This document shows positions 4,651 through 57,343 of a stretch of DNA of 64,000 bases, one piece after another; the stretch's first letter is position 1; each line of letters starts with the position of its first letter. The DNA lies in NCBI GenBank assembly GCA_946699065.1, contig CAMPDV010000013.1, positions 1-64,000 on the forward strand, given 5' to 3'. The stretch comes from Loxodes magnus. Its lineage: Eukaryota; Ciliophora; Karyorelictea; Loxodida; Loxodidae. The notes under the pieces are model-generated. The model had not been told where the DNA came from. It searched no databases and worked only from the letters and a program-made list of their open reading frames with translations. A program made the position numbers and the translations under genes.

Positions 4651-5737
4651 ATGGAGAAAAAATAAATGGAGAAAAAAGAAAAGCAATTTACTAAAAGTAT
4701 TTTTTTAAGAAAACTCTTAAGAGCGAGAAGCCACATTTTAGGGAAAGTATCTCTACTTCATTTTAAGTATGAAATTCTGCCTAACTTATGCTACTAAAAG
4801 TTAATAAACAAGATCAGTTATGACCAAAGTAAAGGTATTTCTTTAATATTTTTTAGACTAAGTCCTTACTGGTCACACTTCACCTGTTTGCTCGGTAGCC
4901 ATATCAAGCGACATGAATTGAATTGTATCAGGTTCAGGAACTCCTGAAAATTCGATAAAGATCTGGAATTTCCAGACAGGTACTCTCCAAAGAACTATAA
5001 CAGGACATACTGATTATATTAACTCGGTAGTAATCTCCCCAGACTCTAACTACATTGTATCAGCATTTAATGACAAAACCATAAAAATCTGAAACTTATA
5101 GACTGGTTCTCTCATAAGAACTATAACGGGGCATACTTCCTTCGTTAGATCGGTAGTAATCTCCCCAGACTCTAAATATATTATATCGGGATCTGGAGAT
5201 AAAACTATAAAGATCTGAAATTTCCACAATGGTGCTCTCCAAAGAACTATAACGGGGCATACTTCCTTCGTTAGATCAGTAGTAATCTCCTATGAATCTA
5301 GATATATTATATCGGGATCTTACGATAACACTATAAAGATTTGGGATTTCTATACTGGTCAGCTTGTGCGAACTCTTACTGGGCATTCAGGTTATGTTTC
5401 ATCGGTGATAGTGTCTAAGGATAATAGGTATATAATATCAGGTTCTGGTGACAATACTATTAAGATATGGGATTTCTCTTCTGGTTAGTTTATTCGTACT
5501 CTTTAAGGTCATACAGGTGCTGTACGTAGTATTCAGTTAAGTGTTGATTCAAGTGTTATATTTTCTGGTTCTGATGACCATCTAATTAAAATCTGGAACT
5601 TTGATAAGGGTGAGTGTATATAGACTTTATATGGGCATATAGATTTCATAAATTCTATAGCATTGAGTGTTGATAATAGATGGTTAGTATCGGGAGGATG
5701 GGACAGGACAATTAGAAAGTGGAGAGTTTCGAATTGA
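4651..5737 (+). CDS. Seven-blade WD40 repeat protein, copy A
   Basis: A beta-propeller protein, expected to bind partners through its top face. The start is the ATG at 4651; the same start is usable in all four copies. A basic N-terminal segment of about 60 residues (FTKSIFLRKLLRARSHILGK) precedes seven WD repeats of 42-44 residues. Each follows GHT-xx-V-x-SVVIS...YIISGSxDxTIKIWNFxTG. A short intron interrupts the first blade (4,829-4,856 if 28 bases, or 4,835-4,856 if 22; both keep frame). TGA encodes the conserved Trp in blades 1-3, TAG/TAA encode Gln. The probable stop is TGA at 5,735, right after the last blade (KWRVSN), conserved in all four paralogs. Length is about 352 residues. Residues after GHT and around the SGSxD Asp differ strongly from the paralogs. 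Function is unknown; fungal HET-type WD domains are the closest pattern. Confidence 0.9.
4829..4856 (+). other. Tiny spliceosomal intron in WD40 gene A
   Basis: The N-terminal frame (ending ...NKISYDQ) and the WD40 frame (starting VLTGHT) differ by one base, and a GTAAAG...TTTTTTAG segment sits exactly at the change. Removing 28 bases (or 22 from the inner GTATTT) joins both parts in frame. The same segment occurs at 24,960-24,987, 40,220-40,247 and on the minus strand at 57,153-57,180. Confidence 0.75.
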
Positions 5738-6398
5738 GTAACTTGCTATTTGACTTAATTAAATTTTACGATTAAAGATATAAGATATTGGTAATGCATT
5801 TAAATGAATGTTTAATGGTAATAATGTTTTTTGTTATATGAAGTGTTTGCTTTATATTTATTTAAAATTTGTTATATTCTTAAATATTCTTTGTTTAAAA
5901 AAAGGTTGAGTAATATAGGTTATTGAAATTAGTGAGGTATGTTGATTTAAAGTAGTAATGTTTAAAAATATTAAAAATATAATTTTGTTAAATGAAGACG
6001 TAAAATAAGTTTAAGTTTAATTTTATGCTATAAAATTTTATAGATTTATTTTTAGATTTTGTAAATATTTCAAGTTGAGTATAAATTTTCATTTTTTTTG
6101 TGAAGTAGTTAAAATATTATTTGTACATGCAAAGTTAGTTTATAATTTTGATTATTCATAAAAAATGTAATTAAGAATTTTATTTATTTTATTTTAAATT
6201 AAATTTTGTTTTTATTATTTATTTTTTATGATTGATATTTAATATTAATTATTATTAATTATTATTATTATTAATTTTTAATATTTAAATTTAACATTTT
6301 TTGTTTTTGACTTGGAAAAAATATTCTGATGGTATTTTTTTTATTTATCTTTCAAGTTTAGAGCTTAAATTTCATGAAAATAAAAAATTTGTTTTTTT

Positions 6399-6941
6399 GC
6401 TCAGCGTTTTACACTACCAAAGATTTTCGGCACGGAATAAATTTAATTATTTCGGTATAAAAAATTTTAAATAGGAATAAATTTTCAAGAAAAATTCCAA
6501 ATATAAAAGATTTTTGAGAAAAAATAGGAATAAAAAAAGTTTTATATTCAAAATAGAATTTGGAAATTTTTTTTGTTGAAATGGTATTTTTTAAAAATAA
6601 AAACACATTTATTTAGGAACATTTTTTGATTTGAAAAATTTTTAACAAAATTGTTTTGTTTTTGATTTAAAAATATATTTTTGATAAGGTAAATTATTTT
6701 TGAAATGATAAAAAAAATTATTGTTTATGCTTTGGAAAAAATGCAATTTTTTAATTTTGAACTTCTTTTCGAGTAAATGAAAAAATTCGCTTTAAAAATT
6801 TAAATGTTTTAAGAATTTACTTAAATAAAAAGGATCTCTAGAAGAAAGGAGATATAATTAAATAAACCATGAAATCGTGAAAAAATTATCTTTTTTTCGC
6901 TCTGAGTTATTCACTACAAAAGATTTTCGGGATGGATAAAT
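6399..6941 (+). repeat. Paired 45-bp motif downstream of WD40 gene A
   Basis: Two related motifs about 500 bases apart share the pattern GCTC-GAG/AGC...TTCACTAC-AAAGATTTTCGG-AYGGATAAAT (6,399-6,443 and 6,898-6,941). They stand out from the surrounding A/T runs and recur as a pair at the same distance in blocks B and C, and as three diverged copies in block D. Function is unknown; a 3'-end or chromatin signal is possible. Between 5,740 and 8,870 I see no gene. Confidence 0.6.
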
Positions 6942-8874
6942 CCTTTTCTTAAAGGGATAGAATTTTAAAAGATTTGAAAAGTTTTTTAAATGACTTTTAA
7001 GAAGTAAAGATAAAAAAATAAATGACAATTTTAGGAAGAAACAAAATCAGTAAAAAAATTTTTCTAAAAGAGGGCTTAAAACTAACTTTTTAATAGATAT
7101 TGCGAATTTTTAAAAATAACTAATCTAAAAAGAGCTTAAAAATCTCTTTATAAAAATATGATCAATCAAATAGAAAAAATGAGGTACAATATATCTGTAA
7201 TAATAAATTTTTGGCCAATTTACAAAGAATCTAGAAAAAGTAATTAAGCAAGGATCTAAATAATATATCTAACCTAACTATATAAAATATAGAAACAAAA
7301 ATTTATTAATTAAGTTTAAAAATATTCTGCTTTATTATAATAATTAGAAAAACATTAAAAATCGAAAAGATGAGTAAAAGAGTTTTGAAAAGAGCTTACT
7401 ACGACTAACTATCTGTTTTTAATTTGCGAAAAGATGTTAATTTAGAAGAGAAAAATTAGTTTTTAGGAAAAAATTGATATATTAAGTATTTTTTCTCATT
7501 TCGTAATATTAAAAAGAATAGCTTTAAAGATAAGTTTTCTGATTTAAAGCAACTTGAATATATCTACTATGCATATAGAAAATTGATTTTATTTATTAAT
7601 CTTAAAACTTGAATTTCTAATGAAGCTATTTTATTAAAGTTGAAAGCTTTTTTAAAAAATGATTGATTATTTATCATTAAGAAACATTTGCTAGTAAACT
7701 ATATAAATAATTTAAATATATGCAAAATTATAAAAATCTTAACTTTCTTGTGAATTATCTTATATTTCCATCTAAAATAAGAATAAAATTATATTCTAAT
7801 ATTAAATAATACGAATTACCAAAATGAAATTTAAATAATTAAGAAATCAATATAGTTTTCATTATATCAAAAAAGGTTAAAAGAAAAGCTTTAATAGTTT
7901 GTATTAATTAAAATAATATAAAAAGTTTAATTTAATAACTATTATAATTATATCTATAAAAAATAGCAAATATTTCGTACAATATAAAAAGAAACATATA
8001 TAGCATAATAAAAAGCAAAGTTTCTACTAAGCCAATAATGCTAATAGTACACAATTTCATAAATAACCTTAATATTGAGCTATTTTTGTTTTATTCTAAA
8101 TTATTAGACAACTAAATTATAATTTATAATTTAAGCATTCCTTTAATAAGAGTTTGCTTTAATATATAATTTAGTGTTTTTTATTTAAGATACTAAATAT
8201 TCATAAACATAATAATATTTAAGGTGCTTTAATTAAAATAAATTAAAAAAACTATAAATTTAAATTTAAAATATCTTATCAAGAAAATTAAATTAAAGAA
8301 TTTTAATATTCATTTTCTAATTAAAAATAGTTATTATTTATTGTTCATTAATCTATTTGATTGATGTTTTAAAGATTGTAATTATATTTATTCATAAAGT
8401 ATGATATCAACTGAAAATTGCTAGATTTTTTAAGATAAAAACTTAACTCTTAAAAACAATCCTTTTATAAGATAAACAGAAATAAGAGGAATTATAATTA
8501 AAAAAATTCTAACAAACAAATATATAAGACAAAAAAATAAATTTTATAAGAGATCAATTAAAGTTGTGCAAGAATTTGAGAGCAAAAATATTACAGTTAA
8601 TATCAAAATATTGTAATCCAATAGTCATAGATGCAAAAATTGATGCTCAAATTAAACTAAAAATAGATTTATTATTTGGTAAATTAATCTAGAAATAAGA
8701 AATATGGCATAGCTTTAACAGATTTATTGAGAAATTTAATTTATCTTCAAACTTAATATATTTTTTATTTATTATTAAATAATAGTAAAATTAAAAGTTT
8801 ACTATGTAATTTTAAAACTTTATATTATATGTATCGTTATATTAAAATTATGTACGAATTATTAAAAAATTAGA

Positions 8875-9200
8875 TAATTAAAAAGATGATGGGAGCTGAA
8901 GTTGATTCTCTGATAGAACCTTTTAGTCTTTTGGATAAGGTCAAGTTCCTATCCAATGAAAAGGTCCTTGGCTAGAGTCATTCTCATCAGGAAAACAAAA
9001 TCTTTCCGATTATCCACTCTTGCTAGCAACTTGAAGGCTGTCGGCTCCTAGTTATGGAACCCCTGAATGAAGCTTATTGAATTAAGCAACAGGATATCCT
9101 CTCTATATGCATTGAGAGAGTGTCCTGGGTTGTCTAGCTGGAAAGGAGTTTCCAGTCCCTCGAAGAGAAATTTTAAAGTTCATAATTAATTAATTGTAAA
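8875..9200 (-). mobile_element. SINE-like structured-RNA element, copy 2
   Basis: Reverse-oriented, diverged copy of the element at 3,570. It keeps the T-rich end (AAAAAGATGATGGGAGCTGA on the plus strand), the blocks GATTATCCACTC and CAACAGGATATCC, and the terminal hairpin. Here the hairpin has different bases on both arms (CTGGAAA-GGAG-TTTCCAG), so pairing is kept. The middle hairpin is also changed but still pairs (TTGGATA...TATCCAA). I cannot identify a target duplication. Confidence 0.7.
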
Positions 9201-9304
9201 CTGCTTATTACTCCTAAGGATAATATTTTAAGATTTAAAATACTTAATTGAAAAAATTTGCTTGCTATGTTTGTAGAAATCTTTATAAGTCAGTATTAAT
9301 AAAT

Positions 9305-9805: not shown

Positions 9806-11560
9806 TTTGGTTCTTAGAAAAGAATTCCTAAGATACTTAATGTAGTTGCTTAATGTGTTCAAAGTGCATTAAAATTGGCCTTATGTCGCTCAATAAATAT
9901 TTTGTAAAACACATTAGTAAATATTTAAAGGCTAAATATCTGAGTTAAAAGACTAGATTTCAACTGAAAATTTGAGAAGAGCATAATGAGCTTCAATAAA
10001 AAGCAAAACTAAATGAAAATTTATAGAATTTTTTCAAATATTTAAATAATAAAAGATATAGTAAATTAACTTCATTAAAGTTTAGTGATGATCTAAAAAC
10101 TCTTTTCTAATATCATTAATTAAGTATGTACTTCAAACCACAAATAATATTAGAGGGCAATTATAAAATAATATAAGAAAAATCGAAGAAATAATTTAAA
10201 ATTTAGAAAAAACATTATATTTACCATCATAAACTAGATAGTAACAAGAAAAAATAGTAGCATTATTAGATATAATTAAATATCAATACGAGCAGATAAA
10301 GTTAATTATTTAGAAATATAACTAAGTTAAAAAGGAAGAAGTAAATGTTAATTAAATTTCAGATCAGTTAATTAAAATTATTTTATCATTATGAATTTTA
10401 TTGAGGAAAAGTGCAGAATTAAAATCCATAACATTATAATATTGCAGATATATTAAATAAATATTTTAAATAACAAATTAAATATGATTTTACACTATTA
10501 ACAGTAGAGAATGTGCTAAATTCTTAGAAAAATTTTAAAATAAAGCTTTAGAAAATACTAATTTGCAAGAAAAACCTTTAAATTTTTCTAACATATGTAA
10601 TAATTAAGATATTTTTATTTAATTCAAACAGTTATCAAGTTAAGGTTTGATAAAAAATTGAATGATATCATAGAATTATCTAAGGCTGATATCAAAGTAG
10701 AATAAGCTTCTGCAAATGCGATAGCAATATTAAAATGCTTGAACTATATCTTTATACAAAAAAATTTAGAGGGAATAAGAATCTAAGGTGCTAATTTGAG
10801 TGAATCAAATTTTCAAGATTGTAATCTGAGAAACTCAAATTTATAAGTGGTCAATCTAAGAAATATAGAAAGAATGCGAAGCTAATCAACTGCAATTTAA
10901 ATGGAGTAAATTAAACTAAGAAGTAATACGAATTGCCCTAATTTCTTGATACTTTGTTGAAACATATGGATTGAATTTATTCGATAGAGGTCACGAGTGA
11001 CTAGAAATAATCATATCAAAACTAAACGATTCGATTATAAAGATTTTGGATTTTCTGAGTGATTTCTATAAGAGTACTTTGACCGAACGAACGAATGAAG
11101 CTGTAAAGAGGGATAGCAAATAAATAGTTTTGGGAAGTTATTCTAGTAAAATATAAATATGAGAATTTTTGAATGTGACCTTAAAAATTACTTTGATGGG
11201 ACACATGAATTATACTAGATCGGTAGTGGTAAAAAATTATCAGAAATGAATCGTCTCGGAAAGTTCTGATTAAACTATAAAAATATTAAAATTTTCAATT
11301 GGTTAATGTATTCGAACTCTCTAAGGATATCAAGATTCGATAAGAGTAATAGAATCAACTCATGAAAAAATTAAAATATCTGGAGGTCATGACAAAGCAA
11401 TAAAAATATGAAACTTTCCAACAAAAAAAAACATACGAACTTTAAGGCCATAAAATTTAGTGATAATGTTAGTAATAACAACTGACAATAAGTTTATAAT
11501 ATCTGGATCATATGACAACACTATAAAATATAGAATTTCTAAACAGATGAGAGGTTAATA
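9806..11560 (+). pseudogene. Broken pentapeptide-repeat / WD40 gene
   Basis: Several frames joined by small frameshifts read as one protein. The N-terminal part (IPKILNVVAQCVQSALKL near 9,820, then Lys/Gln-rich coiled coil) leads to a helical region (LNDIIELSKADIKVEQASAN, near 10,660). Pentapeptide repeats follow at about 10,785-10,905 (GANLS ESNFQ DCNLR NSNLQ; after a frameshift NAKLI NCNLN GVNQT). WD40-like repeats lie at about 10,960-11,545 (HMDWIYSIEVTSD, KIQIWEFL, MGHMNYTRSVVV, QTIKILKF, KAIKIWNF, FIISGSYDNTIK), with TGA as Trp. In other organisms such a pentapeptide-WD40 order often follows a NACHT/STAND NTPase; I see no P-loop here. At least three frameshifts are needed, so it is probably not functional. 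Confidence 0.65.
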
Positions 11561-11599
11561 TTATTACTCTGATATTAGGGAGAAATTTATGAATTAATA

Positions 11600-14004
11600 C
11601 TAACTGGAGATATAAAAGGAGTAATACCAGGTGGATAAGAGAAATAGATAAGGAAGTGAAATATTCGAAATAATTACAAGATCTTAAAGATGATTAAGTA
11701 TAAAAGAAGGTATGTATATAATTTAAATATAAATAGGAATGAATTTAGAGAGAATTACAATAGATATCTTCCATTCAAATAGTAATTTATAGTTTTGAGA
11801 AAATAGGAACGAGTGAAAACATCAAGCAAATGTCGAATATGAAGTAAGTTTTAGAATATGAATTAAAAAACGAAATTCATTTAATTTAAATTAATACCTT
11901 AAAAGATATAAAGCAATCTAAAATAATTTTAGCTTAACAACAGTCAAAGTTTTCATAATAAATAAAAAATATAAACTTTAAATTTTTTTTACTTTGATTT
12001 TTAAACTATTAATATTTGAGTATGGATATAAAATTTTGATATTATAAAATTATTTAAAAAATTAAAAATAATATACTAACTTTTATTATAAATTTTACTT
12101 TTCAAAAATTGAAAAAAATAATTCTGTTTTAATTTTTGTAAATTTATAATAAAACAATAAAAATAACGCTTGATTAAAAAAGTTATGAACTTATGAAAAT
12201 ATAATATGCTAAAAAGCTCTGGATTTTAGACTTCCGGAAATCAGTTAGTACAAACAGCAATATCCTCAAGAGAAGTTATTTGACTATTAAAAATTTGAAT
12301 AAAGAGTTATTAAAATTAAAAAAACGGATTAAATCTGTGATTCTTTTACAATTAAAGATTAAAGGAAGTAAACTAAATTATTTGGAAGATTTTTAAAAGA
12401 TTAATTCTTTTGTTAAAAACAGTATATGATAGAAAATTCGAGAAGCTTGACAAAATATCTAAAGAATTAAGGATTTAAAAATTCATTGAATAAAAACAGA
12501 AAAAATCTGAAAAACTACAGAACTTCATTAAATATAATAATTTTATTGCCAAAAATCTTAATATTTAGATAAAAAGTAAGGAATTCTTTATATTAAAATG
12601 ATTTTATTTTAATAAATTTAAAAAATGTAAGAGATATTTAATAATTATAAAAGAACAATATTTTATTTTTATCTTTACAATAATTTTGCTTTTAGTCATA
12701 TATAGTTAAAAATTGTTATTAATTTTATATTTTCAATTCTGATTAAGGAAATATTTTTTATTTTTTTAATCGTAAATTATAAAAGTACATTATTTTTTCA
12801 TTCTATTTCTTTAAATGAAAAAATCTTTTAAGATGCTATATTTAAGAAAAATTAAAGAAATTGTTCTTATATAATGATTTTCTTTTTAATTATATATCTT
12901 TAATTTAACAATAAAAATAATATTTTATTTTACATTATTAATTAGATTTTTTTAGTTTATTTTTACATTATACTTTTTTTAATTTGAAAATATTTTACAA
13001 TTAATTTATAATTTTCAGACTTACGAATATAAACTATCTTGATATGATTTTTTAATATGTTATAAATTAAGAATAATATAGAGACTAAAAAATTAAATTA
13101 TTATAGAATGTAGTAAAATGCAAAGAAATATCAATTTCTTTGGGATACTATTTTTATTTTGAATAAAACTTATCATTTATAGAGATTAGCATATTAAAAC
13201 ATAGACCAGTTACTTTTCTTATATCCTCCTTACAGTAAGCAAAGTTTCTTAAAATATACTTAAACTATTTAAATTCTAATAAATATTAGAATTACGATGA
13301 AAAATAATAAAAATTATTATTTTTTAAATTTATAATTTCGTAATTTAAAATTTTTCTTATTTGGGAAATAAATAATTTTATAGTTTAAACTAAAGAAAAT
13401 AATTTTATTTTCCTTTGTAAACTGATTTTTATGTATGAATAATATAAAATTTTAATTTTAAATTGTTTTTAAGATTTTAACTTTAAAATATAGAAGTCAT
13501 AAAATTATTTTATTTTATTTACTGTAAGTTTCAAAGTTTTTTGTTCAATTTCTTTAAACTATGGGATCTATTTAAATTAAAACTTTTTTAATTGTTTTTT
13601 AAATTTGCATTTAGTTTTTTTAAATAATTAGTAAATCTGTATTAAATCTATAAAATTTAAGCATCAATAACCTAATAATTCTAAATAATTATTACTTCTA
13701 AATATTTTTTCATTCATTCAATAAATTTTTTCCAATTATTCGTAGTTTACTAAAAAAGCATTCTATCAACATCTAGTTATAAAAAATATAATTAAAGTCT
13801 TAGTTATAATCCTATTATATTAAATAATTTGCAATTTTAGTAAGATAGTAAGTAAAAAATGATTAAAAAATAAACTATTAAATTAATTTTTAAATTTTAT
13901 GATTAAAGACCTGATATACGAGTTATTATCATTATATTATAAAAATACTTAAGCAAATTTAGAATATCTATACATAATTATAGTTAAAGAAAGTAAAATA
14001 AGTT
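11600..14004. other. AT-rich stretch, no gene recognised
   Basis: Very AT-rich with long A and T runs. Translation in any frame gives mostly Asn/Lys/Ile/Phe without motifs, and no duplicated partner in the window allows a frame test. Confidence 0.5.
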
Positions 14005-14020
14005 ATTTTCGAAAATTTTA

Positions 14021-14330
14021 ATAATTAAAAAGATGTTGGGAGCTGAGATTGACCTTCTGAATCATACTTTCTGGTTTTATGGCTAGGAACAAGTTCCTTT
14101 CCTGTCGCTGAGAAAGTCCCTGGTCAAAGTCAACCTTTGCAAGGGAACGCCTTCCTATTGATTATCCACTCCTGTTTGGGCTTGAAGCCTGGCTGCCCAT
14201 AGCGATGGAGCTCCTTGGCAGCTGCTTTTCGAAAGCAACAGGATATCCCCGTTATCCCATGAAGGGAGTGTTGGGGTCGTTAAACTGCAAGAAGTTGCAG
14301 TCCAAAACTCTTTAAGTTTAAAATTAATTA
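14021..14330 (-). mobile_element. SINE-like structured-RNA element, copy 3 (15-16 bp TSD)
   Basis: Nearly identical to copy 1 but reversed, so it is probably a recent insertion. The flanks ATTTTCGAAAATTTTA (14,005-14,020) and ATTTTCGAAATTTTA (from 14,331) form a target-site duplication with one base lost. It keeps the terminal hairpin CTGCAA-GAAG-TTGCAG and the AAAAAGATG end (TTTTT in element orientation). Confidence 0.8.
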
Positions 14331-14349
14331 ATTTTCGAAATTTTAAAAA

Positions 14350-19150: not shown

Positions 19151-19258
19151 AAGATACTGATTGTATATTTAAAAGAAATAATTCTAGAGAAAGTGACAAT
19201 GAAGATGTGTTTTAAATATTTGATACAGAATTAATAAGCAATAAGCATTATCCAACAA

Positions 19259-22200: not shown

Positions 22201-23476
22201 AAAGTATTTAATTGATTATTTATTATATTGGAGCTTTATTAGTAGAACTAATAAATTATTAAGATTACTAGACTCAGTATCTTTAATTAAAGATAGCCTA
22301 TTCTTTATAATACTTCTTATTTATATTTTTTAATAAATTAACAAGATACATTAAACCTTTAAATATACGATATATTTCATTCTAAGCTTTTATTTACAAG
22401 ATATTTGATAATAAGTATATTAAACTAATTTAAAAATAAAATTTAGCTTACATGCTTTTTTATGGTAGTTAATATTTTAGGATTATTTTAGCTTAGAGAT
22501 ATAAGGAAAATCAATTAGGGTAATATGATCTAAATTAAGAAGAGAGAAATTAAGCAGATAGAATTTTAAAAGATTTGATAGATAATGTTTTCAAGAGACT
22601 AAAGTATGAATGTTGTTGTAGTTTTTGGATTTAAATTTATGCCTATTGAATAGTGTAGTGAATGAAGCAGCAAATTCAATCTAAGATATTGCAAAGTTGG
22701 AGAAAAAAGCAGCAATTTTTTATATTCCTAAGAAAATAAAAAATAAACGCATCTGAAAATTTTTGATTTAAGATAATCAAGAAATTGAAAAACTTAAAGA
22801 GTTTGTACAATTATGCTACTTTGAGAATTTAGATCTCAAACTATTGCATGAATATTTCAATCTAAATTTTATAAAGGCCATTAAATATTTGTCATTCTAG
22901 AAGGATTTATATTTTTCCATTTTTTCAAAAGGATAATTCTTAGATTTATAAGTTCAAAGCAAACATTTTGGCAACCCCTTTGGACATGTACATTTCTCAT
23001 TTAATAGCAGCTTTTTTATTTAAGATTTTGATTAATTAAATTTTAGTTACTTCTTTTTTATTCATTTAGAAAAACTGGAATTCTATAATTATTTAATTCT
23101 TCTGTAAAATATTTATTACTCTATTTTATCTATAGAAAAACTTGTTAAACTATGCTTAATATCCAATCTGTTACTACTTGAAAGCTTAAATATTTTTTAA
23201 ATATCAAGCATGCCTTTTGATTGCAATTGATTATTTTAGTTTATTAAGAAAAATTGTAATTTAGCAGTTATTTCATTCTAGTTCGTAAGTGATAGTCTTG
23301 AATCTTTTAATTAATAAATTCAATTTAAGATTTAAAACTCTTATCTTGTAGGTTTTTTTTATCACTTTCATTATGTTTATTTAAATCCTTTCTTATTACT
23401 ACTAAAGATTGTATTCTTTTTAAATTTTATGACTAAAGTCAACTAGACTAGGTTTTATTGCGACTTTAATTTTAGT
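19259..23476 (+). CDS. Large P-loop protein with coiled-coil and Leu-rich C-terminal part, truncated
   Basis: One frame stays protein-like for about 1,400 codons with TAR as Gln and TGA as Trp. Near residue 57 is a Walker-A P-loop, GSTGIGK (19,427-19,447), in IFLPLGSTGIGKFKLIKKF, so nucleotide binding is likely; the usual Ser/Thr after the Lys is Phe, which may impair it. Then comes a segment (KRIDRQSQIYCQQ, near 19,980) shared with the gene at 60.8-64 kb, hydrophobic stretches, a long coiled coil (LEELLLLKEQFELKELKKEK, about 21,500), and a Leu-rich end (IEKLVKLCLISNLLLLESLN, about 23,130) resembling irregular leucine-rich repeats. A basic Asp/Glu-containing stretch just upstream in another frame (RESDNEDVFQIF, about 19,190) suggests the N-terminus is frameshifted. 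The frame ends where WD40 block B begins, so the 3' end may be lost. NLR-like architecture is only a guess. Confidence 0.6.
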
Positions 23477-24781
23477 TTTAAATAACTTATATTAGCTAAT
23501 CTAATACTTATATTATCTCATACTTATTACAAATAGGCATATTATGTTAAGTTTACTCTTTCAATTAATTCAGAAAATAATAATAGAATATATTTAAAAT
23601 ATGCTTTCTTTCTTAAAAGCTTATAATTTTCTTAATAGCAAACAAATTATTTTAATAAAGAGAGTATTAATAGAGTAACTATGTTTTTTGGATAAGTATA
23701 GAATAATAGAATTAAGTTTTTATCTTTAAATAATCTAGAATAATTTAGGTATTATTAATTTGAAATGATAATTACAAAAATAACATAAATAATAAATATA
23801 ATATTAGTTTGCTATAAAAAGAGAAAGTTATCTAAATGTATTAATTATAACTAATCTAATATCTTTATTAAAGAGAATTTAAACTAATAACTAATAAAGC
23901 TAAAAGGATAAAATATTAAGTATTTAATAGACATAATTAAACATATTAAAGCTTATTTTAATAATAAAATTAAATATTACTATTTAATAATTGTAAGATA
24001 AAATTAGTGATACACTATTTCTAGTTAGTTTAAATATTTACTATCTACTATTTATATTTATTACATTTATATAACTTACTTAGAATCAACATTAAAAGTA
24101 ATAAATTATATTAGTTTATTATTATAAGAGAGACCTTTATAAGTAAAAAGTTTTAATGAAACAGTAGTAAAAAAGTGGACAAATAAAAGAGTTTATCTTA
24201 TAAATACTAAAAATACTTTGCTTTAAATAATTTGATATTTTTTAATCTTTATTCAAACTAATTAATAAGAAACTTATTTTATTTAATTTTTTTAATTAGT
24301 AAAAAGCTTAAAGAAATTTTTTTTTTGATTAAATGTAAGTGAAAAGTAATAATTAATAGCAATAGTTTTTAAAATAATTGTAATATTTTATTTATCATTT
24401 AAAAGGATCTACAACGAAATAAGATTTTCTTATTAAGAGTTTTTGATTTAAAGCACAAATAAGTTTTAATTAATGGATGTATATTAAAGTTATTATAATA
24501 AGGATATAATTCTTCGTTATAAACTTTTGAAATAATAATTTATCCTTTTATTTAAAAGTAAAAAGATATAAAATAATTAAAATTGTAAAAGCATGTACAC
24601 TATTAGTTTAATATCTATTCTTGTTTTAAGACAAAAATAGAAAAATCAATGATTTAGAAATAAGATATTTATAAATATGCTTAATAAATAATTTAATTGT
24701 TTAATTGTATTGAAATAAAGTCAGTAAAATTAATTGAGTTATTTTAATTAAAAAGTTATTGAAGTAAGTTATAAAATTAAA

Positions 24782-25865
24782 ATGGAGAAAAAAGAAACGG
24801 AGAAAAAAGAAAAGCAATTTACTAAAAGTATTTTTTTAAGAAAACTCCTAAGAGCGAGAAACCACATTCTAGGGAAAGTATCTCTACTTCATTTTAAGTA
24901 TGAAATTCTGCCCAATTTATGCTACTAAAAGTTAATAAACAAGATCAGTTATGATCAAAGTAAAGGTATTTCTTTAATATTTTTTAGACTAAGTCATTAA
25001 TATCACCTCACCTGTTTGGTCGGTAGCCATATCAAGTGACCTGAATTGAATTATATCAGATTCATAATATCCTGAAAATTCGATAAAGATCTGGAATTTC
25101 TAGACAGGTGCTCTCGAAAGAACTATAACAGGATATACTTCTCCTATTACTTCGGTAGTAATCTCCACGGACTCTAGCTATATTGTATCGGGATCTTATG
25201 ACAAAACCATCAAGATCTGAAACTTATAGACTGGTTCTCTCATAAGAACTATAACGGGACATACTAGCTCAGTTAACTCGTTAGTAATCTCCTATGACTC
25301 TAAGTATATTATATCAGCATCTTACGATACAACTATAAAGATCTGAAATTTCCACAATTGAACTCTCCAAAGAACTATAACGGGACATACTAATGTAGTT
25401 AGATCGGTAGTAATCTCCTATGACTCTAGATATATTATATCGGGATCTCGTGATACAACTATAAAAATTTGGGATTTCTAGACTGGTCAGCTTGTGCGAA
25501 ATCTTACTGGGCATTCTGGCTGAGTTTTATCGGTGATAGTGTCTAAGGATAATAGGTATATAATATCTGGTTCTTATGACAGGAATATTAAGATATGAGA
25601 CTTCTCTTCTGGTTATTGTATTCGTACTCTTCAAGGTCATACAGGTGCTGTATCAAGTATTCAGTTAAGTGTTGATTCAAGTGTAATATTTTCTGGTTCA
25701 TGGGATGAAATAATCAAGATATGGAACTTTGATAAGAGTGAGTGTATATAGACTTTATAAGGACATGCAGGATCAATAGAATCTATAGCATTGAGCGTTG
25801 AAAATAAATGGTTGGTATCGGGAGGATATGACAAGACGATAAGAAAGTGGAGAGTTTCGAGTTGA
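24782..25865 (+). CDS. Seven-blade WD40 repeat protein, copy B
   Basis: Paralog of the genes at 4,651, 40,057 and 57,343. Start ATG at 24,782, intron 24,960-24,987, probable stop TGA at 25,863 after KWRVSS; about 351 residues. TGA encodes Trp in several blades, including KIW of blade 5 (25,596-25,598) where copy C has TGG. TAG at 25,101 encodes Gln where copy A has CAG. Blade 1 has lost part of its GHT motif by a 3-base in-frame deletion, and blade 2 reads GYT. Surface residues differ from the paralogs: blade 4 has NVVR and RDT where copy A has SFVR and YDN. The scaffold is otherwise almost identical and open, so the gene looks intact. Confidence 0.9.
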
Positions 25866-26567
25866 TTAACTTGCTATTTGACTTAATTAAATTTTACGAT
25901 TAAAGATATAAGATATTGGTAATGCATTTAAATGAATGTTTAATGTTAGCTATGCTTGTAGTTATATGAAGTGTTTGTTTTTTATTTATTTATTTAAAAT
26001 TTGTTATGTTCTTAATATTATTGGTTTAAAAAAAGAATAATATAGGTTATAGAAATTAGTGAGGTATGTTTTTTAAAGTGTTTATGTTTAAAAATATTAA
26101 CAATATAATTTTGTTAAATGAAGACGAAAAATAAATTTAAGTTTAATTTTATTCTATAAAATTTGTTATAGATTTTATTTTTAGATTGTGTAAAAATTTC
26201 AAGTTGAGATAAATTTTCATTTTTTTTGTGAAGTAGTAAAATATTAATTATACATGCAAAATTAGTTTATAATCTTGATTATTAATTAAAATTTTAATTA
26301 AGTGTTTCATTTTATTAATTTTATTTTAAATTAACCTCCGCTTTTTATTATTTATTTTTTATGATATATTTAATATTGATTATTAATTATAATTAATTAT
26401 AATTTATTATTATTAATTATTATTATTATTTATTATTTATTATTAATATAAAATTTTATATTTTATGTTTCCGATTGGAAAATAAAATTTTCTGATATTA
26501 AGTTTTTTATTTATCATTATTTTTCAATTTTAGAGTTTAAATTTCATGAAAGCAAAAAATTTGTTTT

Positions 26568-38620: not shown

Positions 38621-40056
38621 ATTAATAAATGATGATGTGCTATAAAGCAAAACACGAAGAATTGTTTATTAGGAACAGAAAGATATAGAATAATAGTAGA
38701 TTAATAAAATGTATTAAGAGTAAATAATAATTTATAAGATTAGTTTTAAATAGCTTATATTAGCTAATATAATACTTATATTATCACATGATTATTACAA
38801 AGAAACATATTATGTTAAGTTTAATCTTTCTATTAATTCAGAAAATAATAATAGAATATATTAAAAATATGCTTTCTTTCTTAAAAAAGCTAATAATTTT
38901 CTTAATATCAAACAACTTATTTTAAGAAAGAGAGTATTAATAGTGTTAGCAATATAATTTAGACTTATATAGAATAATATATCTAAGTTTTTATCTTTAA
39001 ATATTCTAGAATAATTTAGGTATTATTAATTTGAAATGATAATTACAAAAATAACACAAATAATAAATATAATATTAGTTTGCTATGAAAGAGAAAGCTA
39101 CCTAAATATATTAATTATAACTAATCTAATATCTTTATTAATTAAAGAGAAAATTTAAATTAATAATTAATAAAGCTAAAAGGATAAAATTTTAAGTATT
39201 TTAGTAGACATAATTAAGCATATTAAAGCTTATTTTAATAATAAAGATAAATATTACTATTTAATAATTGTAAGATAAAATCAGTGATCAATCTTTTCTA
39301 GTTAGTTTAAATATTTACTTTCTACTACTTCTATTTATTACATTTATATATTTTGCTTAGATCCAATATTATTATTAATAAATTATATTATTTTATTATT
39401 TTAAGAGAGACCTTTATAAATAAAAAGTTTTAATGAAATAGTAGTAAGAAAGTAGACAATTAAAAGATACTATCTTATAAATTCTAAAAATAATTTGCTT
39501 TAAATAATTTGATGTTTTTTAATATTTATTCAAACTAATTATAAGAAACTTATTTAATTTCATTTTTTTAATTAGTAAATAGCTTAAAGAGCTCACTTTT
39601 TTGATTAAATGTAAGTGAAAAGCAATAATTAATAACAGTAGATTTAAAAAAATTGTAATATTTTATTTATCATTTAAAAGGGTCTACAACGAAATAAAAT
39701 TTTCTTATTAAGAGTCTTTGATTTAAAATACAAATAAGTAGTAATTAAATAAATGAATATTAAATTTCTTATAATAAGGATATAATTCTTCGTTATAAAC
39801 TTTTGATATAATAATTTATCCTTTTATTTAAAAGTAAAAAGAAATAAAATAATTAAAATTGTAAAAGTTTGTACACTATTAGTTTAATATCTTGTCTTTT
39901 TTTAAGACAAAAATAGAAAAATCAATGTTTAAGAAATAAGATACTTATAAGTATGCTTAATAAATAATTTAATTGTTTAATTGTATTGAAATTGAGTCAG
40001 TTAAAAATTGAGTTATTTTAATTAAATATTTATAGAAGTAAGTTATAAAAATTAAA

Positions 40057-41128
40057 ATGGAGATAAAAGAAAAGCATTTTACTAAAAGTATTTTTTTAAG
40101 AAAACTCTTAAGAGCGAGAAACCACATTTTAGGGAAAATATCTCTACTTCATTTTAAGTATGAAATTCTGCCCAATTTATGCTACTAAAAGTTAATAAAT
40201 AAGATCAGTTATGACCAAAGTAAAGGTATTTCTTTAATATTTTTTAGACTAAATCATTACTGATCACACTTCAAATGTTTGGTCGGTAACTATATCAAGT
40301 GACCTGAATTGAATTGTATCAGGTTCAGTAATTCCTGAAAGTTCGATAAAGATCTGGAATTTCCAGACAGGTAATCTTCAAAGAACTATAACAGGACATA
40401 CTTATCATGTTTACTCGGTAGTAATCTCCCCTGACTCTAGCTATATAGTATCAGGATCTGGTGACGAAACCATAAAGATCTGAAATTCATTGACTGGTGC
40501 TCTCATAAGAACTATAACAGGACATAATTCATATGTTAACTCGGTAGTAATCTCCCCTGATTCTAACTATATTATATCAGGATCTGAAGACAATACCATA
40601 AAGATCTGAAATTTTCACAATGGTGATCTCCAAAGAACTTTGTCTGAGCATACTAATACAGTTTTCTCGGTAGTAATTTCCTATGACTCTAGATATATTA
40701 TATCGGGATCTGGTGATAAAACTATAAAGATCTGGGATTTCTAGACTGGTCAGCTTGTGCGAACTCTTACTGGGCATTCAAGCTTAGTTTTATCGGTAAT
40801 AGTGTCTAAGGATAATAGGTATATCATATCTGGTTCTTATGATAGAACTATTAAGATATGGGACTTCTCTTCTGGTTAGTGTATTCGTACTCTTTAAGGT
40901 CATATAGATGGTGTATCAAGTATTAAGTTAAGTGATGATTCAAGTGTTATATTTTCTGGTTCTTTCGACAAAACAATCAAGATATGGAACTTTGATAAAG
41001 GTGAGTTTATCTAGACTTTGTAAGGGCATACAGGATGAATAGAATCTATAGCGTTAAGTGTTGATAATAGATGGCTGGTATCGGGAGCTAGAGACAATAC
41101 GATAAGAAAGTGGAGTATTTCGAGTTGA
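40057..41128 (+). CDS. Seven-blade WD40 repeat protein, copy C
   Basis: Start ATG at 40,057, intron 40,220-40,247, probable stop TGA at 41,126 after RKWSISS; about 347 residues. The N-terminus is a few residues shorter than in A and B (MEIKEKHFTKS). Trp is TGA in blades 1-3 and in GHTGW of blade 7. The last three Trp-type scaffold positions before the stop use TGG where Trp is present. Variable positions differ again: blade 2 YHVY with GDE, blade 3 SYVN with EDN, blade 4 NTVF with GDK, blade 6 DGVS with FDK. Blade 4 starts EHT instead of GHT. The frame is open and the scaffold conserved, so it is probably functional. Confidence 0.9.
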
Positions 41129-41820
41129 GAAACTTGCTATTTGACTTAAATTAATTTTACGATTAAATATAAGATATTGGTTATTCATTTAAATAAATGT
41201 TGAATGGTAATAATGTTTTTTGTTATATGAAGTGTTTGATTTTTATTTATTTATTTATCAAAAGGTTGTATATTCTTAAATATTCTTGGTTTAAAAAAAA
41301 GTTGAGTAATATAGGTTATTGAAATTAGTGAGGTATGTTGATTAAAAGTGGTAATGTTTAAAAGCATTTAAAATATAATTATGGTAAATGAAGACATGAA
41401 ATAAGTTTAATTTTATTCTATAAAATTTTATAGATTTATTTTTAGATTTTGTAAAATATTTTGAGTTAAGTATAAATTTTCAATTTTTTTTGTGAAGTAA
41501 TTTAAATATTATTTATAAAGTTAAAGTTAGTTTATAATTTTGATTATTAATTATTAATTAAAAAAATTAATTAAATATTTTATTTATTTTATTTTAAATT
41601 AAATTAAATTAAATTAAATTTTTTATTATTAATTATTATAATTATTATAATTAATTATAATAATAATTATTATTTATTATTATTATTAAATTTTAATATT
41701 TAAGTTTAATATTTTATGTTTCTGATTGGAAAAATCATTTTTCTGATATTAATTTTTTTATTTATCATTATCTTTTAATTTTAGAGCTTAAATTTCATGA
41801 AAACAAAAAATTTGTTTTTT

Positions 41821-42367
41821 GCTCAGCGTTTTACACTACCAAAGATTTTCGGCACGGAATAAATTTAATTATTTCGGGATAAAAAATGTTAAAATTGGAA
41901 TAAATTTTCAAGAAAAAATTCTTAATATAAAAGATTTTTGAGAAAAAAATAGGAATAAAAAAAATTTATATTCAAAATAGAATTTGTAAATTTTTTTTGT
42001 TTAATGTAATTTGTAAAAATAAAAAACATTTTTTTTGTTAGGAAAATTTTTTGATTTGAAGAATTTTTAACAAAATTGTTTTGTTTTTGATTTAAAAATA
42101 TATTTTTGATAAGGTAAATTATTTTTGAAATTATAAAATAATTTATTGTTTATGCTTTGGAAAAAATACAATTTTTGATTTTGGAACTTCTTTTCGAGTA
42201 AATGAAAAAATTCGCTTTCAAAATTTTAATGTTATAAGAATTTACTTAAATAAAAAGGATCTCAAGAAAAAAGGAGATATAATTAAATAAACCATGAAAT
42301 AGTGAAAAAATTAAAAAGTTTTTTCGCTCTGAGTTATTCGGTATAAAAGATTTTCGGGATAGATAAA
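41821..42367 (+). repeat. Paired 45-bp motif downstream of WD40 gene C
   Basis: Same pair as in blocks A and B: 41,821-41,865 (GCTCAGCGTTTTACACTACC, then GATTTTCGGCACGGAATAAA) and 42,325-42,367 (GCTCTGAGTTATTCGG, then GATTTTCGGGATAGATAAA). The rest of 41,130-44,000 shows no gene. Confidence 0.6.
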
Positions 42368-44010
42368 TCTTTTTCTTAAAGGGATAGAATTTTAAAAGAT
42401 TTTAAAAGTTTTTTAAATGACTTTTAAGAAGTAAAGATAAAAAAATAAATGACAATTTTAAGAAGAAAAAAAATCAGTAAAAATTTTTTTCTATAAGAGG
42501 GCTTAAAACTACCTTTTTAATAGATATTGCAAATTTTAAAAATAACTAATCAAAAAGAGCTAAAAAATATCTTTATAAAAATATGATCAATCAAATAGAA
42601 AAAATGAGGTACAATACATCTGTAATAATAAATTTTAGGCCAATTTACAAAGAATCTAAAAAAAGTAATTAAACAAGGATCTAAATAATATATCTAACCT
42701 AACTATATAAAATATAGAAAAAAAATTTATTAATCAAGTTTAAAAATATTTTGCTTTATTATAATAATTAGAAAAACATAAAAAATCGAAAAGATGAGTA
42801 AAAGAATTTTGAAAAGAGCTTACACCGACTAACTATCTGTTTTTAGTTTGCGAAAAGATGCTAATTTAGAAGGGAAAATGGAGTTTTTAAGAAAAATTGC
42901 TATATTAAGTATTTTTTATCTTTAAATTTTTTCTCATTTCGTAATATTAAAAAGAATAGTTTTAAAGATAAACTTTCTGATTATTAGTAATTTGAATATA
43001 TCTACTGTGCATGTAGAAAATTGATTTTATTTATTAATCTTAAAATTTGAATTTCTAATGAAGCTATTTTATTAAAGTTGAATGTTTCTTAAAAAAATTG
43101 ATTGATTGTTAATCATATAAAAACATTTTTTTTAGTAAACTATATAAATAATTTGAATATATGCAAAATAATAAAAATCTTCACTTTCTTGTAAATTATC
43201 TTATATTTCCGTCTAAAATAAGAATAAAATTATATTATAATATTAAATAATACGAATTACTAAAATGAAATTTAAATAATTAAGAAATTAATATACCTTC
43301 ATTATATCAAAAAAGGTTAAAAGGAAAGCTTTAATCGTTTGTATTAATTAAAATAATATACAAAGTGTAATTTAATAACTATTATAATTATATCTATAAA
43401 AAATGGAAAATATTTCGTATAATATAAAAAGAAACATATATAGCATAATAAAAAGCAAAGTTTCTACTAAGCCGATAATGCTAATAGTACACGATTTCCC
43501 AAATAACCTTAATAATGAACTATTTTTGTTATATTCTAAATTATTAGACAACTAAATTATAATTTTTAATTTAAGCATTCCTTTAATAAATGTTTGCTTT
43601 ATTATATAATATAGTATTTTTTAATTTAAGATACTAAATATTCATAAACATTAAAATATTTAAAGTGGTTTAATAAATATGATTTTCAAAAGATTAAGCA
43701 TTTATTTAAATTTAAAATATCTTATCAAGAAATTAAATTAAAATGTTTTCATATTCATTTTATAATTAAATGGTCATTATTTATTGTTCATTTATCTATT
43801 TGATTGATGTTTTAAAGATTGTAATTATATTTATTCATAAAGTATGATATCAACTGAAAATTGCTAGATTATTAAAGATAAAAACTTAATTCTTAAAACA
43901 GTTCCTTTATAAGATAAACAGTGATAAGATGATATTATAGCTTAAAAAGAAATTTTTTCTGCAAATTGATTTATAAAAAAAGACTTAATTTTATATGAGA
44001 TTAATTGAAG

Positions 44011-46300
44011 ATGAGCAAGAATTTGAGGAAATATAAAATAAATAGGTTATAAGATGAAATATATCGTCAAAAATATTTAGAATCTTTTCTACAAACTTAT
44101 CTAGAATTCTTTTAGATAGATTAAGATAATCTTTAAGTTTAATATGAATTTATCAAAAATAACATCTAATACAATGCTGATTAAACATTAGGATTCTTTA
44201 TTCCAGATTCAAGTTATAACAATTTTCCTCAAGATCTTACTAAGAAATATGTAGGCCAAAAAGGTCTAACTCAGTATATAAAGAAGCACATATTATATCT
44301 GGAAGAATAAACAAATAAGTAACTAATCTTCATGAAAAAGTGAAATGACATTCTGAATGACTTCAAGTATAATTTGTGAAAGTTTAAAAACACAAAGCAA
44401 AAAAGAAACTTTTACTTCTAAATAGAGATGCTAAAGAAATATTTTCACATACTAAGAAAATTAAAAAGCCTAAAATAATAAATTAAATGAACTTTAATTA
44501 AGAAATCAAAAATAAATTCATTGATTCATGGGAGAATTGTATTTTTAACAAGCATTCTAATATAACTAAATAATAAATAAATCTTATTAATTAAAAAATA
44601 GATAAAATATAAGATATTATTTAAGAAATTAAAGATTATCAACTCTCATATTTATTAGGATTTTATCTTTTTACCATACAAGAAATACAAGAAATACAAG
44701 AAATTATAAAAGAAATTACGAATAGAAAAGCAGCTGTTTCAGCTTGAATAAAAGGTGAATTTCTGAAATATGGTGGATAATATTTGATAATAATTCTTCA
44801 CTCTTTTCTGAATAATATGTTAAGATTTTGAAAAATCCCTTAGGAATTATATACATTGGCGATAATTCCAATATTTAAAAAAGGAAATAAAGATTACTGT
44901 AAAAACTGACTACCTATTTCTCTTATTAATATTATTATAAAACTATATGATAAGGCTTTAACAAAAATACTATGCAATCTGATTTATTAGAGAAATTTGA
45001 TTCACCCTTCATAAATGGGATTTATAAAAATCAGATAAACAACTTAATAAATCTGAATAATATAACAAATAATTTATAATTATCGGAAACGTGCTAAAAG
45101 TAAGACTAAATTAATAGCAACACTGATAGATGTTGAAAAAATGTTTGACTCAATAGAAAGAAGACTTTTGTTTGATTAACTTAAGAGAGTTAAACTACCA
45201 CTTGGAATAATAATAGCCTTAGAATCTTTTTACAAAAACCTAAATTTTTCATTTAAAATAGAGGAAAGAACACCAGAACATTATAATACAACAATGGAGT
45301 TATGTAAGGAAAGTCACATGGACCATATGACGTAGTATATAGATATTTGGAAAGTAAAAATACCTAATTGGGATTCAAATGCCAGGGCTGGAGTATTAGT
45401 TTCGCATGTAGACGATGAGCAGATGATTTGATTCTTCTTTCCAAAACTTCAAAGTAAATGCAGGAGTTAATAAATGAAACAAGTAAGCATTTTTACATAA
45501 ACTCACTTAAAGATCAATGTTATCAAATCTGAATGCATCTAAATTTTAAAGAAACATTATAAATAATAAAATTTAAATTTATGATTGGATAATTAACCAA
45601 TTATTTAAAAGGATAAAGTAACATATTTAGATGTAATGCTACATTAGAAGAAGAATTTTAATTCCCATTGCAAAGAAGTCGCGTTCAAGTATTTAGCTGC
45701 AATGAAAAAAGCTGTTTTTTAGCTTATGAGATATAAGAATGTGATTATTGACATTTTAAAACTTTATGCAGATTTTTTACACTACCTAAAGCAGAATATG
45801 GAGAGAACTAGTACCGTGGTGTATTCAGAAAGGAATAACTGGAGTTTTGAATAGAATTGAATCAAATATGAGAATGATTTCAAGAAAAGCATTTGAAGCA
45901 GCAACTTCAACATTAATAAGTTATGTTTCATAGATTTAAACCGGTTATCTTTCAAAAACATTATGGCAATAAAGTTTTTTAAATTCTATTATAAAATGAA
46001 ATAAGAAATTATTAATTTTCCAACATCGACAATAGGCTCTCTTTTCGCTACCAACTGAAAAATAGGATTTCAATGCTATGATCAAGTTTAGCAATTATCA
46101 GACCTCTATAGTATCTACCTGTAGAATTCCAAGATTAGTACAAATTAAAAATTTTTACTAAATATATAAGAGACAAAATACAATAATATTTCGATAATAC
46201 AGCTACTCAAAAGTTTAATAGAATGAAAAAAGTTAAAATATATACTAAGCAGTTTCGTATCTTAACCAATTTCAAGTAATTACTTACTCTAAATTGATAA
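44011..46300 (+). mobile_element. Degraded LINE with catalytic RT motifs, 3' end deleted
   Basis: Collinear with the LINE at 28,763 but keeps the part deleted there. Motifs in order: MSKNLRKYKINRL; NWLPISLINIIIKLYDKALT (about 44,905, Trp is TGA); DVEKMFDSIERRLLFDQL, the first catalytic Asp region (about 45,130); and WADDLILLSKTSKQMQELI, the YADD-box equivalent (45,416 onward), whose Trp is TGA. Frameshifts occur between these motifs. The thumb (RELVPWCIQKGITGVLNRIE) is kept. The C-terminal knuckle region, about 650 bases present in the 28.8-kb copy, is deleted near 46,290. The two LINE copies thus carry complementary deletions; neither is active. Confidence 0.85.
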
Positions 46301-51909: not shown

Positions 51910-51929
51910 TTTATTGATATGTTATTTAA

Positions 51930-54084: not shown

Positions 54085-54129
54085 TTTTTTTACTTTAAAT
54101 TGGTGCTTATAATGATATAATAATTACAC

Positions 54130-55449: not shown

Positions 55450-55765
55450 AAAAATTGAAAAGATGGTGGGGGCTGAGAATGACCTTCGTTACAACATTTT
55501 CTGGTTTTATGGCTAGGAACAAGTTCCTTTCCTTTCGCTGAGAAAGTCCCTGGTAAGAGTCATTTTCTGAAGTGAACACTATCTTTGAGATTATCCGCTC
55601 TTGGTAGGGGCTTGAAGCCTGGCTGCTCATAGCGATGGAGCTCCCTAGCAGCTGTGTCTGGAGCACAACAAGATATCCCCGTTATTCCATAAAAAGAGAA
55701 AGTCGGGTCGTGCAATCGGAAAGGAGTTTCCGGTCCAAAAACTTTTTAGTTGAAATTAATTAATT
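55450..55765 (-). mobile_element. SINE-like structured-RNA element, copy 4
   Basis: Inserted in block D and absent from the matching place in A-C. Conserved blocks include the AGTTCC/GGAACT hairpin, GAGAAAGTCCCTGG and GATATCCCCGTTAT. The terminal hairpin is CGGAAA-GGAG-TTTCCG, with compensatory changes relative to copies 1 and 3. A 75-codon ATG-to-stop frame crosses it, but that frame is not kept in copy 1: a one-base indel pair shifts the conserved GGATAATC block between frames, so the conservation is in RNA, not protein. Surrounding low complexity hides any target duplication. Confidence 0.75.
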
Positions 55766-56274
55766 AAAAAATAAATAATAAAAAACAAAATTTAAAAAAT
55801 TATAATTTAATTTAAAATAAAATAAAATAAAATACTTAATTAAATTTTTAATTAATAATCAAGATTATTAACTAACTTTAACCTTATAAATAATATTTTA
55901 ATTATTTCACAAAAAAAAATTAAAATTTTTACTTAACTTGAAATTTTTACGAAATCTAAAAATAAATCTATAAAATTTTATTGAACAAAATGAAACTTAA
56001 ACTTATTATACGTCTTCATTTAACAAAAGATATATTTTAAATATTTTTAAACATAGACATTTTAAATCAACATACCTCACTAATTTCTATAGCCTATATT
56101 ACTCAACCTTTTTTTAAACCAATAATATTTAAGAATATAACGAATTTTAAATAAATATAAAACAAACACTTCATATAACAAAAAACATAGTTATCATTAA
56201 ATATTCATTTAAATGCATAACCAATATCTTATATATTTAATCGTAAAATTAAATTAAGTCAAATAGCAAGTTAC

Positions 56275-57343
56275 TCAACTCGAAACTCTCCACTTTCTTA
56301 TCGTCTTGTCCCATGCTCCCGATACCAACCATCTATTATCAACACTCAATGCTATAGAATATATTTCATCTGTATGCCCTTTTAAAGTCTATATACACTC
56401 ACCCTTATCAAAGTTCCAAATCTTGATTGTTTTATCCCATGAGCCAGAAAAGATAACACTTGAATCAACACTTAACTGAATATTTGATATACCTCTTGTA
56501 TGACCTTAAAGAGTACGAATACACTAACCAGAAGAGAAATCCCATATCTTATTTGTCTTGTCGCTAGAACCCGATATTATATACCTATTATCCTTAGACA
56601 TTATTACCGATAAAACTTAGTCTGAATGCCCAGTAAGAGTTCGCACAAGTTGACCAGTCTAAAAATCCCAAATTTTTATAGTTTTATCAGCAGATCCCGA
56701 TATAATATATCTAGAGTCATAGGAGATTACTACCGAGTAAATGAAAGAAGTATGTCCCGTTAACGTTCTTATGAGAGTTCCATTGTGGAAATTTCAGATC
56801 TTTATAGTAGCGTCTTCAGATCCTGATATAATATACTTAGAGTCATAGGAGATTACTAACGAGTTAACTTATGAAGTATGTCCCGTTATAGTTCTTATGA
56901 GAGAACCAGTCTATAAGTTTCAGATCTTGATGGTTGAATCACCAGATGCCGATATAATATACTTAGAGTCGTAGGAGATTACTATCGAGTAAATTGAACC
57001 AGTATGTCCCGTTATAGTTCTTAGGAGAGCACCTGTCTAGAAATTCCAGATCTTTATCGAATTTTCAGGATATGCTGAACCTGATACAATTCAATTCAGG
57101 TCACTTGATATGGCGAGAGAGAAAACAGCTGAAGTGTCAGTAAGGACTTAGTCTAAAAAATATTAAAGAAATACCTTTACTTTGGTCATAACTGATCTTG
57201 TTTATTAACTTTTAGTAGCATAAGTTAGGCAGAATTTCATACTTAAAATGAAGTAGAGATACTTTCCCTAGAATGTGGTTTTTCGCTCTTAAGAGTTTTC
57301 TTAAAAAAATACTTTTAGTAAATTGCTTTTCTTTTTTCTCCAT
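56275..57343 (-). CDS. Seven-blade WD40 repeat protein, copy D
   Basis: Minus-strand paralog. Start ATG at 57,343 (MEKKEKQFTKS), intron 57,153-57,180, probable stop TGA at 56,277-56,275 after KWRVSS; about 346 residues. Blade 1 lacks GH by a 3-base in-frame deletion (VLTDTSAVFS). Blades keep the scaffold with many synonymous changes: blade 6 differs from copy A at ATA/ATC, GGT/GGC, GAC/GAT and AAA/AAG. The amino-acid changes sit in the variable slots: GSIY with GDS, SQVN with EDA, SFIY with ADK, DQVL with SDK, RGIS with WDK, DEIY with WDK. In the blades TAA/TAG (Gln) also appear at variable positions (SQV, DQV). Confidence 0.9.

Follow-up and report, generated by a model that had tools for sequence, protein, structure and literature searches.

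The WD40 repeats of the Podospora NWD genes are under positive selection at codons 7, 9, 25 and 27 (PMC1805685), and rearrangement of such fungal repeats has been described (PMC2873952). The d-a and b-c loops of a WD40 blade open on one face of the propeller, as stated for the fungal repeats (PMC1805685), and in a 2025 paper the repeats are classed by seven positions, which under matched numbering include all five positions considered below (PMC12222747). Here, we describe a WD40 gene family of the ciliate Loxodes magnus with five hypervariable positions, or slots, in each blade. Four copies, A to D, are located in a stretch of 64,000 nucleotides, the window, which comprises positions 1 to 64,000 of contig CAMPDV010000013.1 (C13 below; assembly GCA_946699065.1). 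The slots are diversified well above the neutral rate, and the remainder of the protein is under purifying selection.

Each window copy consists of two exons encoding an amino-terminus of about 56 residues and seven blades, with a TGA stop codon at a common position; an earlier note on this DNA had claimed four intact paralogs, and all four are indeed intact (Table 1). The blades are 42 codons (126 base pairs) long, with 44 codons in blade 1 of copy A. Removal of a 22-nucleotide intron restores the frame between amino-terminus and blades in all four, as does that of an alternative 28-nucleotide intron with its GT further upstream. In gene A, a second in-frame ATG, at 4666, is a possible start. 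In the blades, in-frame TAA and TAG are read as glutamine and TGA as tryptophan; for the somatic genome of L. magnus, translation table 27, with TGA as tryptophan or stop, has been reported (PMC11441545). The bacterial code, with zero frames of at least 150 amino acids in the window, was rejected and replaced by table 6 plus TGA as tryptophan. The TGA codons read as tryptophan in exon 2 are mostly found in blades 1–3, the exceptions being two in blade 5 of copy B and one in blade 7 of copy C.

The family was searched for in the whole assembly (705,730,643 bases, 7,843 contigs). A 33-base-pair intron-junction pattern has 834 exact occurrences, and 1,405 when up to three mismatches are tolerated (control, 0); distinct genes are fewer than these counts, as the assembly may include both haplotypes and duplicates. 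A search with the amino-terminus gave 2,751 first-look candidates, 150 of which were scored and are 95–98% identical. The main sample of 84 is made up of 80 of these 150 listed loci plus the four window copies. In the intactness test 73 passed and 11 failed, one of them (L093) solely for an intron length of 21 nucleotides; an altered splice acceptor is present in L088–L090. One truncated locus that passed (L080) was dropped, leaving 72 full-length, in-frame copies, which a 1.5% cut reduced to a non-redundant set of 47. The family comprises more than 1,000 splice-junction copies and is mostly intact where sampled. Among the first 100 or so of the 834 exact matches, the copies are grouped regionally, often near contig ends (4–405 kb of the 1760 kb of C13, 1030–1286 of 1366 kb on C33, 774–875 of 889 kb on C84 and 6–175 of 736 kb on C127), with C78, C132 and C156 departing from this arrangement. 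The clustering could be subtelomeric, or could reflect contigs breaking at these repeats.

When the G of the GH motif is numbered 1, the slots are positions 4, 5, 7, 23 and 25. Pooled figures refer to blades 2–7; slots 23 and 25 of blade 1 were excluded because of a two-residue insertion in that blade. The mean entropies over these six blades are 2.04, 2.70, 2.30, 2.75 and 2.01 bits for the five slots in the above order (n = 47), and every other position has a mean below 1 bit. Single blades depart from the means, with non-slot values above 1 bit (for example 2.30 at position 3 of blade 6 and 2.14 at position 36 of blade 3) and some lower slots (1.14 bits at slot 4 of blade 3). The slots were chosen from the same data as the main selection estimate given below, and the fair tests are the held-out ones: when slots are taken from five blades and tried on the sixth (positions 1–34), four or five of the five recur in all six blades, with p values of 3.6e-6 or 5.2e-4 per blade. 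Loci fetched later, by the intron junction alone, have the identical five top positions. Between 31 and 41 distinct five-slot combinations per blade are present among the 47 copies, any two of which differ at 0 to 29 of the 30 slots (median 23); the 72 full-length copies carry 50 distinct 30-slot signatures. The six pairs among copies A–D differ at 20 to 29 of the 30 slot residues. The residues quoted in the earlier note for blades 4 and 6 of these copies are correct, except that blade 4 of copy C opens with EHT instead of GHT. Slots are enriched in serine, tyrosine, glycine, aspartate, lysine, asparagine, arginine and tryptophan, with proline, cysteine and valine scarce. Mean identity is 57% among blades 2–6 within a gene and 81% for the same blade between paralogs.

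Pfam recognises seven WD40 stretches in the 349-residue protein (E 2.4e-81). An AlphaFold model of the copy A blades, made with copies B–D as alignment, contains 28 beta-strands, with a predicted local distance difference test score of 96.3 and a predicted template modelling score (pTM) of 0.92. As modelled, the family protein is a seven-bladed WD40 propeller of about 350 amino acids. Structural neighbours in the PDB reach a template modelling score of 0.95; the best solved one is a seven-bladed designed propeller, and entries 7big, 2ymu and 7bie, with 42–43% identity and root-mean-square deviations of 1.2–1.4, are among the closest. In blades 2–7 of the model, the d-a loop contains slots 4 and 5 and the b-c loop slots 23 and 25; slot 7 comes second in strand a. 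Mean entropy is 1.19 for the d-a and 1.38 for the b-c loops, versus 0.36 and 0.41 for the opposite a-b and c-d loops. In the model, the diversity is concentrated on one face of the propeller, the classical binding face, the face being assigned from loop membership. The 58-residue amino-terminus gave only zf-CCHC_4 in Pfam (E 0.0092, below the cut-off of that family) and, in the PDB, nothing below E 0.14; its AlphaFold model is one long helix (pTM 0.42). For copy A, the hydrophobicity score peaks at 1.01 over 19 residues, a value that, with no dedicated predictor run, suggests a protein without signal peptide or membrane span.

Selection was measured by pairwise Nei–Gojobori contrasts, with bootstrap over sequences; PAML tree-based site models were avoided because exchange between copies makes them unsafe. 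For the 47 copies, the ratio of nonsynonymous to synonymous rates (dN/dS) is 2.05 in the slots (95% 1.86–2.29; somewhat biased, the slots being chosen on the same data), 0.28 in the scaffold and 0.04 in the amino-terminus, the last value biased low because the loci were selected by amino-terminal similarity. A second set was picked by intron junction alone; seven of its eight loci were usable (L124 failed in-frame alignment, L122 is without about one blade, and the amino-terminus has small gaps in L125 and L128) and, together with A–D, gave 1.86, 0.32 and 0.11. All 30 slot codons, versus 17 of 214 scaffold codons, lie above the mean synonymous rate of the scaffold. In 18 recent pairs, less than 3% apart, the ratio of the proportions of nonsynonymous (pN) and synonymous (pS) differences is 1.58 in the slots and 0.33 in the scaffold. 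The nearly identical scaffold with mostly synonymous differences that the earlier note described for the window copies is a fair account of them: their dN/dS is 0.18 in the amino-terminus, 0.27 in the scaffold and 1.97 in the slots. Diversifying selection with the variable sites on one face, as had been proposed, is supported by dN/dS above 1 in slots that belong to two loops of the same face; an even spread over the propeller and a dN/dS near 1 throughout, set beforehand as outcomes that would speak against it, were not seen.

Pairwise differences among A–D are 41–61% in the slots, 7.1–9.3% in upstream non-coding DNA, 7.3–11.1% in the scaffold and 1.8–4.7% in the amino-terminus. The downstream flanks differ by 6.2–16.2% in pairs of A, B and C; values for pairs with copy D (27–37%) were discarded because homology ends there. 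In 24 of the 47 copies, upstream identity is 84–88% between −700 and −300 and 91–94% in the 300 bases next to the gene, followed by 95–99.5% in exon 1 and 81–93% along the blades.

The correlation of slot identities is 0.19 at a distance of 1–2 codons, 0.06 at 18–21 codons and 0.035–0.048 farther away, and the slots appear to be shuffled near-freely in tracts of tens of bases. In recent pairs, slot changes are found beside silent changes and also as isolated single changes. For 16 of 22 recent slot changes, an identical 27-base context exists for at least one of the two variants. Each such context comes from the corresponding blade of a paralog that has diverged by more than 4%; for the 22 listed cases, other blades provided no 27-base match.

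A second family consists of tandem arrays of a different 126-base-pair blade on contigs C1503, C119, C9, C620 and C6957, the array matches stretching over tens of kilobases on the first three. In C1503, 114 blades read from five loci represent 38 protein forms, with entropies of 1.00 (slot 5), 1.55 (slot 7), 1.43 (slot 23) and 0.56 bits (slot 25) and an almost constant slot 4; these blades also vary elsewhere, with 1.24 bits at position 41, 1.23 at position 42 and about 0.5 at each of positions 2 and 3. The pieces from C119, C620 and C6957 have a blade type like that of C1503, and a blade scan of a piece from C272 (L118) found nothing. Across the genome, 7,220 matches to a blade-end pattern were counted (control, 0); this number pools both families, since blade 4 of the main family and further WD40 genes match the pattern as well. 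One stretch of the arrays has a frame break; judged from their sequence, the arrays may be giant genes or reservoirs.

Could the slots simply be surface positions that drift, under relaxed constraint or in pseudogenes? Slots are surface positions, and the sample of 84 includes 12 copies scored as broken or truncated, which also counts against a functional repertoire. However, the slots differ several times more than the upstream non-coding DNA, their pN is 2.7 times the pS of the scaffold, and scaffold and stop codon are kept in the 72 full-length copies. The excess over the upstream flank is therefore a strong argument against relaxed constraint alone, unless the flanks are homogenised by conversion while the blades escape it, and we regard drift as having next to no probability. 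Hypermutation targeted at slot codons, as by a diversity-generating retroelement or a deaminase, is very improbable. It would account for the share of differing slot codon pairs with two or three base changes (15,373 of 25,577, versus 6,589 of 54,563 in the scaffold) and for the adenine content of second codon positions (0.44 in slots versus 0.25). However, the adenine excess is also consistent with the residues used (tyrosine, asparagine, aspartate and lysine), and codon variability for the same amino acid is about 14.0% in slots versus 13.4% in the scaffold over all degeneracy classes, being lower in the slots for two- and three-fold, similar for four-fold and higher for six-fold degenerate residues. 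No reverse transcriptase was recognised by Pfam in ten window frames; no search aimed at template repeats or reverse transcriptases was made.

The role that we think probable, with some reserve, is that of a convergent intracellular recognition repertoire free of NOD-like receptor (NLR) architecture. The product of each gene would bind inside the cell with a specificity set by its own top face, and the constant amino-terminus would link that binding to a response or partner shared by the whole family. Short gene-conversion tracts, exchanged between copies in register with the blades, would generate new specificities together with point mutation, and selection would favour new slot combinations because targets vary; these may be invading microbes, viruses, retroelements or non-self alleles. 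Such a repertoire would work like the fungal HET-D/HET-E sensors minus their NLR signalling part. Several further observations weigh against this role or against parts of it. No signalling or effector domain is recognisable in the protein. In nine independent pairs less than 8% apart, the slot pN/pS is only 1.18 (scaffold 0.33), and the figure for the recent pairs rests on 32 nonsynonymous and 5 synonymous changes. The donor test is not specific to slots, as 52 of 90 non-slot changes also have a donor context, and both variants have one in 1 of 22 slot changes and 10 of 90 others; by these sequence matches, it is a sign of exchange in general, not of exchange aimed at slots. Finally, a binding role in which variability does not serve non-self recognition is equally compatible with the sequence.

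Among other roles, that of substrate receptors diversified for a ubiquitin ligase, or for some different degradation system, is unlikely though not negligible. WD40 propellers commonly serve as substrate receptors, and the constant, short and predicted helical amino-terminus could dock on a ligase; against this, the amino-terminus has no F-box match at E up to 1, and WDxR, the DDB1-docking motif, is missing from the listed ends of blades 2–7 (four commonest variants). It is improbable that the family is mainly a repeat spread by segmental duplication, with genes of little function to the cell. In its favour, the genome is repeat-rich, and the genes are carried on duplicated units, each about 5.5 kb long and present in many copies; however, the four window copies differ in their unit boundaries, Pfam (E up to 0.01) matched none of ten long AT-rich window frames, and the pattern of selection within the protein is sharp. 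A bolder form of the recognition repertoire, which would be adaptive-like, is a long shot: gene conversion would rewrite the slots of about 1,000 propeller genes, possibly also during development of each new somatic nucleus, so that cells or clones would differ in repertoire, and the giant blade arrays would be a further reservoir of slot variants. In Loxodes, a new somatic nucleus develops even at asexual division.

The G+C content of the window is 15.5–27% per 2-kb block, and an Rfam scan of the window gave nothing at gathering scores. Degraded WD40 blades of another type, not of the main family, are located at about 10990–11600 (+). A 2-kb duplication with 93% identity (1–2041 versus 58785–60788) lies outside the WD40 unit. 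A GC-rich repeat of about 300 base pairs is present at 3575–3878, 14019–14322 and 55450–55690, with an end at 8874–8899; with partly matching flanks, it is inserted in the unit of copy A relative to copies B and C. With up to two mismatches allowed, its 28-base-pair end pattern has 1,683 matches in the genome (control, 0); the repeat resembles a retroelement, either a short one or the terminal part of a longer one.

Table 1. Positions of the WD40 genes and associated features in the window.
Feature	Position	Strand	Details
Gene A	4651..5737	+	exon 1 4651-4834, intron 4835-4856, exon 2 4857-5737 including stop TGA
Gene B	24782..25865	+	exon 1 24782-24965, intron 24966-24987, exon 2 24988-25865 including stop TGA
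Gene C	40057..41128	+	exon 1 40057-40225, intron 40226-40247, exon 2 40248-41128 including stop TGA
Gene D	56275..57343	-	exon 1 57343-57175, intron 57174-57153, exon 2 57152-56275 including stop TGA
Copy A conserved amino-terminal segment, 56 residues	4666..4833	+	no domain above cut-off; predicted single helix, low pTM
Copy A seven WD40 blades	4859..5734	+	blade 2 from 5003, later blades at 126-bp steps
Duplicated unit around copy A	2979..8580	+	mostly AT-rich DNA outside gene
Equivalents of copy A's unit	23472-29831, 38702-45104, 58554-54346 (reversed)		

Among propellers of similar fold, the highly repetitive ones (PDB entry 2ymu and the WRAP designs) are neighbours of the ciliate propeller; they are natural highly repetitive or designed proteins, and their entry titles claim no diversified repertoire. 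The leucine-rich-repeat (LRR) genes with 90-base-pair exons of Tetrahymena are also from a ciliate, with more than 1,000 LRR genes in most species; the youngest of T. thermophila are near centromeres and telomeres, and their authors liken the genes to plant innate immunity genes (PMC6564038). Unlike in the WD40 family, the repeats are in separate exons, and the available text neither uses the word "hypervariable" nor describes a slot pattern (PMC6564038). The LRR-ROCO genes of brown algae, candidate immune receptors, have shuffled repeat units and four positively selected positions per repeat, but differ in their combination of LRR with a GTPase module and in exon shuffling (PMC11378527). WD40 is not mentioned in the available main text of PMC6935857 or the available text of PMC11441545, no protist family of this kind is described in the titles and abstract openings listed, and Loxodes and WD40 were not found together in any paper of the literature searched, which excluded most subscription papers and all bioRxiv preprints.

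The closest likeness is to the Podospora NWD/HNWD family (HET-D, HET-E, HET-R), as the earlier note had suggested. Four of the five ciliate slots match the selected fungal codons, slots 5, 7, 23 and 25 corresponding to codons 7, 9, 25 and 27 by spacing and loop placement, not by sequence alignment, and the conserved ciliate positions 6 and 24 mirror codons 8 and 26. Both families show exchange between members and variability on the top face. The Podospora family has ten members (PMC1805685, PMC12222747), compared with more than 1,000 junction copies of a short gene in the ciliate. The fungal family consists of NLRs that trigger cell death when non-self is recognised. The HNWD proteins carry HET and NACHT domains, whereas none were seen in the 349-residue ciliate protein, for which the best 25 of 63 Pfam families are all WD40 or propeller models. 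Fungal repeats are 80–100% identical within a gene and variable in number, whereas the ciliate scaffolds are blade-specific and nearly all sampled copies have seven blades. Given that neither HET nor NACHT was seen and that blades of one gene have not been homogenised, the ciliate genes are not members of NWD/HNWD.

With this family one can test whether single-celled predators maintain large repertoires for intracellular recognition, and its propellers, all built on one scaffold, form a natural library in which to ask what a top face can bind. In the ciliate as in the fungi, the same two loop pairs of the WD40 blade are diversified, which points to one solution reached in both, in the ciliate at about a hundred times the fungal copy number and with no visible NLR part.

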